A DNA stretch of 64,000 nucleotides from Polychytrium aggregatum (taxonomy: Eukaryota > Chytridiomycota > Chytridiomycetes > Polychytriales). Location: assembly GCF_025602895.1 (NCBI RefSeq), contig NW_026516225.1, positions 124,001 to 188,000 of the forward strand. Direction: 5' to 3'. The notes under the pieces were generated by a model. It searched no databases and had not been told where the DNA came from. It worked only from the letters and a program-made list of their open reading frames with translations. Made by a program: the position numbers and the translations under genes. Position 1 is the stretch's first letter. Every line of letters begins with the position of its first letter. This document shows positions 1,596 to 63,252 of the stretch, piece by piece.

Positions 1596-1873
1596 GCTCC
1601 AGCCATATCTCATTTGCTACAGTCAACGGCGTTCAGGCTGGGGATCACTTGTCCATTCTCCTTGGACTGCACTTTGCCTCCATTTATCTCGACCTCTGCT
1701 CCAGGCTGCCTCAGCCCTCCGGATCGTCGTACCTGAGCCCAGCCAGTCGCACTCACTTCCATGCTCAATACAATCGCCATCTCGATGGTCTCTTCAGCGA
1801 ATCAGGCTCTCGCCTCGGGCTTGCTTGTTGGTCACGAAACGACTGTTTGAATTCCTTACAGGCGATCCAATAT

Positions 1874-1884
1874 AAAACGGGACA
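1874..1884 (+). repeat. Left candidate terminal inverted repeat
   Basis: AAAACGGGACA, an exact inverted match to 5570-5580. Located 59 bp before the transposase start codon, as expected for the left end of a Tc1/mariner-type element. Confidence 0.55.
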
Positions 1885-1942
1885 TCCGGGATTTTGACCA
1901 TTCATCGAATATTTTGTTACCCAATGTTATCGCGCGCTGGCC

Positions 1943-2875
1943 ATGACCATTCGCCACACATCCGACTTTCGCACCGCCGCATTGCGATGCTACGCCCTCA
2001 TCCATAGCCTGCGTAAGGTCGCCTCCATATTCAGTGTATCCAAGAGCACCATCCATCGATGACACCGAGGATGCAAGCTGGATGGCCCATCCCGGGTCCC
2101 AGCTCGCAGATCCACTTTCTTCGAGCAGGCATGTCCAGTCATTCGCAGCCTGATTGAACAGGACCCGCTCCAGACTGGTCCTGTGTTGCGATGCAAGCTC
2201 GAGTCCATCCTCCAGAGGAAAGTTTCACTCTCGCTCTGCCACACTGCCATCCAGCGAGCAGGTCTCTCTCACAAGAGGGCAACACACCTCTACAAGTCCA
2301 AGCGACTGGATGAGCGAGTGGCACAGTTCAGGGACGAGACCCGCTCCATTGACCCACGACGACTCGTTTTTGTCGACGAGACAGGGATCAGGAGATCCAT
2401 TTTCCCTCTCTACGGATACTCGCCGAAGGGTGCTCCGCTTCGCCAGCGCAATCACATGAAACACAAGTCTGTCTCGGCTGCATTTGCCATCAACCACTCT
2501 GGTGTGCTGCATCGCATGTACATCCCCACATCATTCAAGACACACTCGATGGTCGAGTTCTTTGAGCGAGCGAGCTTCCCAGACGACTCTGTGATTGTGA
2601 TGGACAATGTCAGCATGCACAAGACAATGGCTGTCCTGGACTGCATCGAGCGCCGAGGATGGTCAGTGATCTTCACCCCACCTGCCTCGCCCGACTTCAA
2701 TCCCATCGAGAACTTCTTTGGGATTGTGAAGCATCAGTACAGGAAGGCAGCAGCGCTGAATGCGTCTGAGGGGTTCAAGGTCGGGATGGTCACATTGTTC
2801 GAGTCTGCCGTTCGGAGGGTGCTTCCAGATGTCTTCCCACGGCTGATTGAGCGAGCGATGCGCTTCTGGGGTTGA
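1943..2875 (+). pseudogene. DD34E Tc1/IS630-superfamily transposase, nonsense mutation
   Basis: Cut-and-paste DNA transposase. Reading from the ATG at 1943 gives an N-terminal helix-turn-helix (KVASIFSVSKSTIHR). It is interrupted by one in-frame TGA at 2060-2062, where the family has a tryptophan (TGG). The frame then stays open to 2875. The catalytic domain contains the first Asp in VFVDETG, the second in VMDNVSMHK and the Glu in PDFNPIENFFG; the second Asp and the Glu are separated by 34 residues, the DD34E spacing of Tc1-like and IS630 enzymes. Length (about 310 aa) is normal. Apart from the single stop the ORF looks undecayed, so the mutation is probably recent. It shares strand and element ends with the Fanzor gene downstream. 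Confidence 0.85.
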
Positions 2876-2992
2876 GTTCCCTCCAATCAAGCCGCCATTT
2901 TCGCGTTCACATCCCTGGCTTGAACCTCTCGGCGATTTTTGAACAGGGTCACTTCCCCAACCAGCCCGCACAGACGGGCTCCTGCTCTCGGG

Positions 2993-2998
2993 TATAAA
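2993..2998 (+). promoter_or_regulatory. TATA-like box before the Fanzor gene
   Basis: TATAAA lies 129 bp upstream of the Fanzor ATG, in the 251-bp spacer after the transposase stop. This suggests that the Fanzor gene has its own promoter rather than being read through from the transposase. Motif only. Confidence 0.4.
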
Positions 2999-3126
2999 TG
3001 CCACACCTTCGTCCTGCTGCTTTCTTCCCTCATCTCGCCTTGATCTGATCATCGCGCTATTGTACGATAAAGAAAGTCTCTGTTCTGACCAGTACCACTG
3101 GCAGACATCCAGCATCCTCTGTCCCC

Positions 3127-5497
3127 ATGCCTCCGAAGCGTAAGGGTACCGGTGATGGCCAGCCTCGGCCACCCAGGCCCAAGAAAGCCAAGTCACAGTC
3201 GGAGCCTGTCTCTGGTTCGTATTCTGACCCCACGCATGCTTGGTCGTCTGTTGCTCCGTCGCTCACCACCACTGCTTCTGCAGATCCAATGGATGTCGAT
3301 CCCACCGAGCCTGGTCCATCTACTTCCTCGAGTACCGGCAAGCGATGTCGCCAGTGCGATGGCACCGATCACGAACGTTGCAACACCAGCAAATGTCCCA
3401 AATACCGGCCCCTCAAGAGTTCTGTCGTCCCACTCGTGGATGGAAGGTCATCCGCCCCTCAGTTCAGCTGCTTCAAGCAGACGATGGATGGCTGTTGTCT
3501 CAATCCCGCTCTCCGCGACAAGATCCAGGCCACCGTCGAGGCCATGACCCAGATCCAGTTCGAGGCATCCAGGCTGCTCAACCTGCACATCCTGAGGTGC
3601 ATCGAGCAGGATCTTCCCGTCCCCGTCATCTCCAAGTCCACACCTGCTTTCGTTCGCCAATGCTTCAGGATCGTCCAGGCCGATGCCCTCTCCCCGACCG
3701 GGGACAATGAGAAATACAACGAGCATCTGGTCGCTTCCTTTCGCGACTACCAGACCACTCGGCACGCAGACCTGCCTCCGGCCCCTCGTCTGCCTGATGG
3801 TGCTCACAGTCAGCTTCTCACCCTGGCTGTCAATGCCTATGCCACCAACTGCACCACCCACCTCGACCTGGCCTACTGGCGACTCCTTCGCCGCTTCTGT
3901 GCTGCCGTCTTCCCAGCCAACAAGCATAAGCACGAAGCCATCGAGGCCTGTCTCGAGCTCTTCGAGAACCAGGGCAGACTCCACCCAAGGCCGATCTCGA
4001 GTTCCTCTATCCAGACTTTGGCTACGTCCTGGACGAGTTTCGGTACAGCAACGACCAGGACCGCTTCCGGGCCCTCCATCGCCTCTCACACCATGTGAGA
4101 ATCCTCGCCCGAGACAAGATGGTCGACAATGTCCACAAGTGGATCGACTGTGACATGTCCGCCCTCCGAGTCACCGAGCTGCAGCGCCAGGCCAAGCTGG
4201 ACGAGCTCACTGCCAGAGGCATTCCCTCCGACGACAAGCGATTCACCACGGCCAAGTCTGAGCTCGGCACCACCAAGGCCAAGATCAACAAGCTGGCATC
4301 CAGGATCAAGTGGGCACTGAAGCAGCTCGCTCTCGACACTCCTCCGGCCGTGTGCACGATGGTCCCTCTGTGCACAGCCACGGCCAAGTATGTCAAGATC
4401 GACACCGTCACTCTCTGGGAGCTCCTTGGTCCAAAGAAACGCCTTGGACTCACCAGGGACAAGCTCAAGGAAGAAGGTGAGGACGGTGTCAACAACCAGG
4501 ATCGTCTCTGGCGCAGTTGCTTCAAGCTGCGTAGTTCCCTCTTCCAAGAGCGGGACGTGAACAAGAAGCTGTTCAACTACGAGATCAGCACCGATGGAAT
4601 TGGATGCACCATCGGTCTCGTCAAGTTTTTGCCTCGAACCGATCACACCGAGACCATCGAGCCTCCTCCGACTGCCGAGCAGCGTATCCAGGCCCACATC
4701 GGCGACCCAGACCCCGGTCGCACCACTTGGATTGGCATCGATCCTGGAGTCGGCTCCATCTTCACGGCGGTCATCCAAGCACCGGGCCACCAAGACGAGG
4801 TGGTCTCATTCTCCAATGGCCACTACCAGCACATGTGTGGCCATACGTCCAACACCAAGTGGCACAACACCATGAAGTATCGACTCAGCATCGAGACCTG
4901 GATGTCGACCACCCCCTCGCCCAAGGTGTCGTCCTCGGAGGCTTTCAAGGTCCATCTCGCCCATGTCCTGCGACCGGAGCTGCGAGTGCAGCTCGACTTC
5001 CACCTTGGCAAGAAGGCCCGTCACCATCGATTCACAGGCCACAGGAGACGCCAAGTGGCCGTCGACAAGATGTGCAAGGCCGTCCTGAAGCACGCCCCGA
5101 TACGGACCGATGTGGTGATCGCCTTTGGCAATGCGTCATGGCGACAGGGCAAGGGCTATGCATCCAGCCCGAGGAGGCAGCGGTTTGCTCGGTACTTTGA
5201 GCAATTCGAGCACCACCGACGCCGTCCCAATCACCATCATGGAAGCGTCAAGGTAGTCTCGACGAACGAGTTCAACACCTCGCAATTGTGCTCCAAGTGC
5301 CTGGAGCCAGTTCGGTTGGAAGGACTCGATGCGCCCAGTGTTGCGAATTCCCACTTTGTCAGGAGCTGCAAGAATCCCAGCTGCCGGACAGTGTGGAATC
5401 GCGACGTCAATGCGGGCGCAACATGATCACAGTGTGCAGGTCGATTGTGGAGACCGGAGAGCGACCGGCGATCTTCACTCGGAGGCTGCCAAAGTGA
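3127..5497 (+). pseudogene. Fanzor (eukaryotic TnpB-like RNA-guided nuclease), two frameshifts
   Basis: Family role: Fanzor proteins are TnpB/Cas12 relatives that use an RNA transcribed near their element end to cut DNA. What is visible: a basic nuclear-localisation-like N-terminus (residues 3-22, KRK and KKAK), then a zinc-knuckle-like CxxC-H-C-C cluster (C74, C77, H82, C85, C90) and a long helical region. A split RuvC follows: motif I IGIDPGVGSIFTA with Asp at 4740-4742, the FGNASW segment at about 5113-5142 and motif III NRDVNAG with Asp at 5403-5405. A CSKC...C-KNPSC zinc ribbon lies just before motif III. The frame shifts once near 3972-3990 and again near 5413-5418, each equivalent to one missing base. 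Read through both, the product is about 790 aa and ends at 5497. Assembly error cannot be excluded, so pseudogene status is provisional. The same residues recur in a relic at 37.3 kb. Confidence 0.88.
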
Positions 5498-5580
5498 TCT
5501 GTTTTATTTCTTGTGGCTTTGCTAGACGCAAGCACAGCACATACTACATGTTCATGGAAGCGGCTGTGGTGTCCCGTTTT
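5419..5580 (+). other. Candidate guide-RNA (omega RNA/fRNA) locus at the element right end
   Basis: In known TnpB and Fanzor elements the guide RNA spans the 3' end of the nuclease gene and the untranslated stretch up to the element end, with the guide continuing into flanking DNA. Here the equivalent interval runs from the RuvC-III codons to the right inverted repeat at 5570-5580. No fold was computed; the assignment is by position only. Confidence 0.3.
5570..5580 (-). repeat. Right candidate terminal inverted repeat
   Basis: TGTCCCGTTTT, complement of 1874-1884. The first ten bases also occur at 37521-37530, about 100 bp after a second Fanzor fragment, which supports it being an end of this element family. 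Confidence 0.55.
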
Positions 5581-5967
5581 TTCTGAATAAAGTGTAACAT
5601 CGACCTTGGTTGATAGTGCAAAACCCGGAGTGCTCATGCCATCCCGGTTTGGTGCAACAGCCGAGCCGCCGCCGAGAGCACAGTCGCCGCTGTCGCTGTG
5701 CTGTCCGCGGTCGCCGAGACGCCTCGCGCGCCTTCTCGCTCCTCGCCGCCGCGACCACACCGAGATCTCCAAGGATTCCGACTTTTCACCCGACCAGCTC
5801 TTGCGCCGATCGGCCCGACGTGCATCCCGTCCTGCCCAACGCTCTCTTGTGAGCCACTCCTCCAGCCTCGCCGATACTGTAGGGCCGGCGGCTTCTGAGA
5901 ATTCAATCCCGCGGTAGCGTGTGTCTATCCATCCCGCAGCTTTCGTTCGCCATCGACACCCGCAGCC

Positions 5968-63180: not shown

Positions 63181-63252
63181 GGGGCCTTGGCGCAACGGTA
63201 GCGCGTCTGACTCCAGATCAGAAGGTTGTCGGTTCAAATCCGGCAGGCCTCA
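63181..63252 (+). tRNA. tRNA-Trp (anticodon CCA)
   Basis: A complete 72-nt cloverleaf can be folded by hand. The acceptor stem GGGGCCT/AGGCCTC has one G-U pair and discriminator A. The D arm is GCGC/GCGC, the anticodon stem TCTGA/TCAGA with loop CTCCAGA (anticodon CCA), the variable loop AGGTT, and the T arm GTCGG/CCGGC with loop TTCAAAT. The B box GGTTCAAATCC is perfect. No intron. Confidence 0.95.

Follow-up and report, generated by a model that had tools for sequence, protein, structure and literature searches.

What does a Fanzor nuclease do for the transposon that carries it? This role has been posed as an open question (PMC10432273), and it is raised again by a locus of the chytrid Polychytrium aggregatum, in a stretch of 64,000 nucleotides that we call the window (assembly GCF_025602895.1, contig NW_026516225.1, positions 124,001 to 188,000). 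An initial annotation, made from the letters alone, had proposed that positions 1874-5580 are a Fanzor-bearing DNA transposon of a Tc1-like type, whose sister copies elsewhere in the genome may be intact and functional. Both of its genes are found on the forward strand, the transposase at 1943..2875 followed by the Fanzor at 3127..5497, and the perfect inverted repeat that encloses them 3.7 kb apart is exact over 11 bp (AAAACGGGACA at 1874, TGTCCCGTTTT at 5580).

Queried with 1874-5580, the genome holds at least 28 places that match over the full length, namely the window and 27 others at 95-97% (among the best 40 of 1311 candidates). Since 27 other places match the whole query, the arrangement of genes and ends is not due to chance. 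The 40 best-matching places were fetched with 600-bp flanks; six of these copies carry the flanks of another copy and were set aside, leaving 34 distinct sites. Here L-numbers denote fetched loci or copies, C-numbers denote contigs, alpha is the window-type element and beta the L050-type. The genome query and the alignment of copies also fixed the ends. The element itself was real, yet its limits had been drawn too narrowly: the aligned copies have longer common ends than the 11-bp repeat, so the element spans 1859-5594 (forward strand), 15 bp further out at the left and 14 bp at the right. The end consensus is TA followed by CAGGCAATCCAATAAAAAACGGGACA (beginning CAGGC) at the left, and TGTCCCGTTTTTTTCTGAATAAAGTG (finishing AAGTG) followed by TA at the right. 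The repeat is thus the core of longer, imperfect ends (left 1859..1884, right 5570..5594), which agree at 21 of 28 positions, TA included, by a hand count on typical ends. In the window the two TAs lie at 1857-1858 and 5595-5596; among the 34 distinct sites, 33 have the left TA and 32 the right one. A right end could be assigned to 69 of 100 listed left ends. The copies delimited in this way fall into length classes of 283-312 bp (5 copies), 383-385 bp (3), 1113-1114 bp (5), 3177-3502 bp (12), 3598-3666 bp (18) and 3718-3790 bp (26), the short classes being recurrent among copies. In the right flanks of L023, L034 and L058, another ACGGGACA-like or TGTCCC-like end lies a few bases away, which may point to insertion within or next to related elements.

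The window copy is degenerate. Its transposase frame, which runs from 1943, is interrupted by a stop at 2060-2062, and the 310-aa form is open in sister copies: 17 of the 40 have a transposase of at least 310 aa (exactly 310 aa in 16, longer in L028), taking the longest ORF counted from its first Met. The protein matches NF033545, the NCBIfam model for IS630, with 121 bits against a cut-off of 100 (E 4.8e-35), as well as DDE_3 (E 2.8e-24), and in L014 there are 34 residues between the second D and the E. The DD34E spacing and the IS630/Tc1-mariner type of the initial annotation therefore stand, with IS630 as the NCBIfam name of the transposase. In twelve shorter copies (L037-L048) the transposase frame is shortened, and seven of the twelve retain a Fanzor ORF of at least 788 aa.

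The Fanzor frame of the window is likewise disturbed, near 3960-4000 and 5405-5430. The protein is about 790 aa long; a frame of at least 788 aa is present in 29/40 copies, and 13/40 have both ORFs at full length (transposase at least 310 aa, Fanzor at least 788 aa), so that sister copies with open frames do exist. Pfam (PF07282), NCBIfam and a PDB profile all place the protein in the TnpB/Fanzor group. When PDB was searched with a profile built from three alpha and two beta proteins, SpuFz1 came first (E 8.5e-4), followed by GtFz1 (0.12); a single Fanzor sequence reached SpuFz1 at only E 0.63. Because the match needs a profile, the nuclease is, on sequence grounds, a distant Fanzor1, nearest to SpuFz1. 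In SpuFz1, E541 and D606 coordinate Mg (PMC10432273); in the profile alignment, counted by hand, they stand opposite E715 and D760. The Fanzor1 motif D-X(125,275)-[TS][TS]-XX-C4 zinc finger-X(5,50)-RD (PMC3627910) is found in L014 as D539, T718 S719, C722 C725 C748 C753 and R759 D760, with 178 residues between D539 and T718. The DPG signature of Fanzor1 (PMC10711439) appears as IDPGVG in five aligned Fanzor sequences, with DPG at 539-541. Common variants in both genes are mostly silent: pN/pS is 0.27 for common variants and 0.38 for singletons in the Fanzor, and 0.22 and 0.60 in the transposase. A structure model of the window's Fanzor fragment had a mean pLDDT of 40.

Other copies of this Fanzor gene are flanked by the same transposase and the same ends, and the identification as a Fanzor1-bearing IS630/Tc1-mariner transposon is well supported. 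What is observed is a TA-flanked, multi-copy element with imperfect inverted ends that holds a DD34E transposase gene and a Fanzor1 gene. Taken whole, with its observed, inferred and more speculative parts, a Fanzor1-bearing cut-and-paste DNA transposon is the best explanation of the locus, and we consider it probable.

Relatives are abundant in the genome, where a PF07282 profile search returned at least 150 matches, all above the cut-off (best 150 of 663 candidates). The beta element L050 aligns with alpha at 97% identity along 1016 bp that cover the left end and the transposase; its Fanzor is only 43% identical to that of alpha and its right end is different. Such a combination, which is new here, appears from its sequence to be a module swap. 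L050 carries a left-end variant, TACRGTC. Beta right ends were found at 19 of 22 loci examined, with an alpha end at L069 and none at L057 and L067, and the left part is absent from the beta copy L049, whose transposase remnant is 43 bp of the 3' end region (L049:1613-1655). One repeated right flank is common to 11 of the 19 beta right ends (L049, L054, L056, L061, L063, L064, L065, L068, L070, L072 and L073). This flank varies mainly in its first ~25 bases, the would-be guide; these copies may have spread via a host repeat, or a larger unit may have been duplicated. The genome also has a Fanzor2-like ORF fused in frame behind an IS607-type HTH and serine recombinase start (L051:1089-2516, on C124). 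Both C124 and C379 have Zn-finger matches in 477-aa frames that lie about 5 kb apart and point in opposite directions. A search for relatives in viral contigs gave 41 pattern matches, of which none was confirmed.

The flanks carry a one-sided footprint. The base preceding the left TA is T at 32 of the 34 distinct sites and A at the other two, against a background in which 13.1% of flank TAs are preceded by T (p 2.6e-26); the mirror base after the right TA is A at only 7/34 sites (p 0.20). Genome-wide, exact left ends have T in 219 cases and another base in 10 (n=229), and exact right ends have A in 41 and another base in 172 (n=213), counts that take in both contigs of allelic pairs. L029, with its truncated left end, was anchored off register in the 34-site count, and its site is also TTA. 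Five of the ten non-T left ends are L019, L021, L023, the L023 allele on C46, and L075, whose own allele L039 has T; the others are L074 (a 311-bp derivative), L076 (3.7 kb), L077 (3.6 kb) and one each on C61 and C358. The TACRGTC variant has T in 9 of 13 cases and another base in four. This left-only bias throughout the genome, with an unbiased right end, is new.

We predict from this footprint that the TAM of the Fanzor is TTA, which in the window would occupy 1856..1858 (forward strand) of the element-free site. The prediction follows SPu-1 of Spizellomyces punctatus, since its left-only footprint, a CA before the TA of the left inverted repeat, equals the CATA TAM of SpuFz1 (PMC10432273). 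With TA at both element ends, a TAM would have to extend past the TA if the element is to be spared; the right junction reads GTA before the guide, so an inserted copy should escape cutting.

A guide presupposes an RNA from the right end. The predicted scaffold of such an omega/re RNA covers 5507..5596 (forward strand), and, by analogy with the SPu-1 layout (PMC10432273), the putative guide of the window copy would be the right flank at 5597..5616. In the predicted fold, these last 90 nt form a hairpin plus a terminal stem in which the right inverted repeat takes part. L014 has a fold z of -2.33 and the window copy one of -0.18; two beta right ends give -0.80 and -2.19, against +1.60 and +0.22 for two control stretches. 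The beta right end of L064 gives a similar layout from different letters, and that of L071 folds partly differently. No covariation was found in the alpha right ends (23 distinct of 45), because the paired bases hardly vary among them. The folds are suggestive, not proof, of a structured right-end RNA. An Rfam search over the window found tRNA only; a tRNA-Trp gene lies at 63181-63252.

The alleles of single sites hold a further signal. For six allele pairs the 600-bp flanks could be compared; 9 of 5998 bases are different, which puts the haplotypes ~0.15% apart beside the elements. Inside the element (~3600-3740 bp), the same pairs differ at 1 position (L012/L015, of 3742), 28 (L025/L027), 40 (L019/L021), 98 (L013/L017), 112 (L042/L048) and 120 (L014/L022). 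Pairs with shorter flanks differ at 155/3634 (L039/L075) and 22/1114 (L028/L078). Four of the eight pairs thus differ by 2.6-4.3%, near the 3.9% mean between copies, and the other four by 0.03-2.0%. In L013/L017, 86 of the 98 differences have both variants in other copies too, and in L025/L027 all 28 fall within the first 7 of 12 bins. Among 43 copies, common variants less than 10 bp apart are linked with an r2 of 0.354; the value drops to 0.082 at 10-30 bp and is only 0.027 above 200 bp, against 0.026-0.034 at all distances when positions are shuffled. Lengths differ as well: allele lengths were obtained for 19 sites, from flank positions or fetched copies, and at 6 of them the alleles differ by 100 bp or more, for example 3.7 kb versus 1.1 kb (L028/C93) and 3.6 kb versus 0.31 kb (L043/C246). 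At none of 33 sites was an empty allele that spans the junction found (best 40 of 1006 and best 40 of 480 candidates, assuming that an empty site would rank first); for 24 of these sites there is a second contig that includes one flank or both. Five second contigs were compared about 1-1.5 kb away from the element: two keep their full score there, a third is short by ~1 base and is not collinear with its insertion on C79, a fourth is 99% identical, and the fifth is 97% identical with 18 additional bases. As the haplotypes are only ~0.15% apart, filled alleles on both may simply mean that the insertions are older than the split.

RIP-like or CpG decay was rejected as the source of the allele differences. 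Singletons make up 379 of 3960 variant cells, the 301 common sites include 113 transversions and 58 CpG-context transitions, and linkage decays in the same way in transversions alone and without CpG sites. Recurrent mutation alone is disfavoured by the high linkage below 10 bp and by clusters of differences that match other copies. Either the copies are often recopied from one another, or the assembly misleads. Separately, L029 has 12 bp of its target duplicated beside its truncated left end, a hint of one-sided repair after a cut inside the target; a comparable 7-bp match at the left end of L026 may be chance. Duplications of ~7-19 bp are described beside 5'-truncated Fanzor copies of the CRe elements of Chlamydomonas (PMC3627910).

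These features could be joined as follows. The transposase would carry the element into a TA, and transcription of the element's right end would yield an RNA with the right flank as its guide. An element-free allele, presenting TTA and the guide sequence, would be cut by the Fanzor, and repair would restore the element; the inserted copy, with GTA at its right junction, would be spared by its own nuclease. More speculatively, if sites are excised, cut and refilled again and again, and repair switches templates among copies, this may produce the unseen empty alleles, the exchange of length classes at one site and the mosaic. The TTA footprint agrees with a model in which the element is retained through RNA-guided cuts in empty alleles. 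On the other side, the fold z values are mixed, the alpha right ends lack covariation and 10/229 left ends are non-T; four of the eight allele pairs differ less than unrelated copies do; and cutting of empty alleles alone leaves the use of non-allelic templates unexplained. The mosaic would need frequent copying between dispersed copies, for which breaks made by Fanzor or transposase are a candidate driver. At its fullest, the proposal is that the transposase opens occupied sites, the Fanzor eliminates empty alleles, and strand invasion that refills the sites, switching templates among ~100-200 copies, keeps rewriting each copy, making the family a freely recombining population. We think this improbable at present. 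If true, it would account for the lack of empty alleles, the mixed length classes at one site and the loss of linkage beyond 200 bp, and its one-sided failures would leave left-truncated copies with target duplications of about the TAM-to-cut distance, among them L029 with its 12 bp and perhaps the CRe duplications of ~7-19 bp.

Each layer of this account has a competitor. That the two genes are chance neighbours left by nested elements, a reading to which the beta Fanzor without most of its transposase (L049) lends some colour, has next to no probability in our view, since the full-length matches, at least 28 with the window, have, at one site after another, both genes enclosed by the same ends; the copies rule out a chance neighbourhood. 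The footprint could also be a property of the transposase, its complex choosing TTA asymmetrically, with the Fanzor a passenger that has no part in retention. The unlikeness of the two ends at 7/28 positions would allow this, as would the T beside most TACRGTC ends and the TTA that adjoins 13 Fanzor-less copies of 283-1114 bp (taken from the TTA list); but the short derivatives examined, L074 and L078, retain the right-end RNA region. No mirrored bias appears in the right flank (41/213), and the left-only extra bases of SPu-1 are its nuclease's measured TAM (PMC10432273). Moreover, the Fanzor is under purifying selection, with singletons at 0.38 against 0.60 for the transposase, and it stays open in the 7/12 shorter copies with shortened transposase frames. 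We hold the passenger reading to be rather unlikely.

For the mosaic and the allele differences, ordinary ectopic gene conversion without any drive from Fanzor or transposase is a strong competitor, which we place somewhat short of an even chance. Beta shows a decay of linkage as well (right parts, 17 copies), and clusters of allele differences match other copies, for example at 9/10 positions of one cluster. The scale is harder to reconcile with it, as linkage is gone beyond 200 bp (43 copies; Fanzor-bearing families only) and pairs with 0-7 flank differences per 1000 carry up to 120 inside. Assembly or polishing that mixed reads of similar copies might instead have created both patterns, and the shortness of the clusters, ~10-200 bp, would suit such an artefact; yet alleles differ in length by 100 bp or more at 6/19 sites, and linkage is already low at 10-30 bp, below the usual read length. 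We rate the artefact as rather unlikely.

Fanzor elements with a Mariner-type transposase (PGv-1, PUl-1) were known before, as was the CA+TA footprint of SPu-1. Like SPu-1 with its SpuFz1, the family described here has a Fanzor1, TA at both ends (a duplication in SPu-1 and probably here), TIRs of ~30 bp and a right-end RNA, here a predicted one (PMC10432273; PMC3627910), and it shares with SPu-1 the gene-less 'ghost' copies and the extra conserved bases ahead of the left TA (CA in SPu-1). Unlike the window element, SPu-1 is described with no transposase between its ends (PMC10432273); moreover, the predicted TAM is TTA here rather than CATA, and the similarity between the proteins is visible only by profile. 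PGv-1 and PUl-1 likewise hold a Mariner-type transposase and a Fanzor1 inside one TA-flanked element, but PGv-1 is described as viral and single-copy, with a further nuclease gene, whereas the family here numbers 229 exact left ends within a single genome (PMC3627910). The TnpB elements IS200/IS605 and IS607 also pair a transposase with an RNA-guided nuclease and a right-flank guide, for which cut-and-copy has been proposed (PMC10432273; PMC10711439); they differ in transposase chemistry, and here a TA stands at both ends. In the literature covered by titles and abstract beginnings, with subscription papers mostly outside it, only PMC3627910 and PMC10432273 describe such elements, and within the same scope neither a TTA footprint nor allele-swapped Fanzor copies came up. 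New here, too, are the allele differences, the length differences, the lost linkage and the lack of an empty allele; a Fanzor role in them is our inference.

In this family the transposase is still attached, some copies are open, the predicted TAM can be read off and a single genome supplies allelic copies, all of which makes the role of the Fanzor testable. The difference between TTA and GTA, if true, would provide a simple account of how an element that duplicates TA can spare itself.
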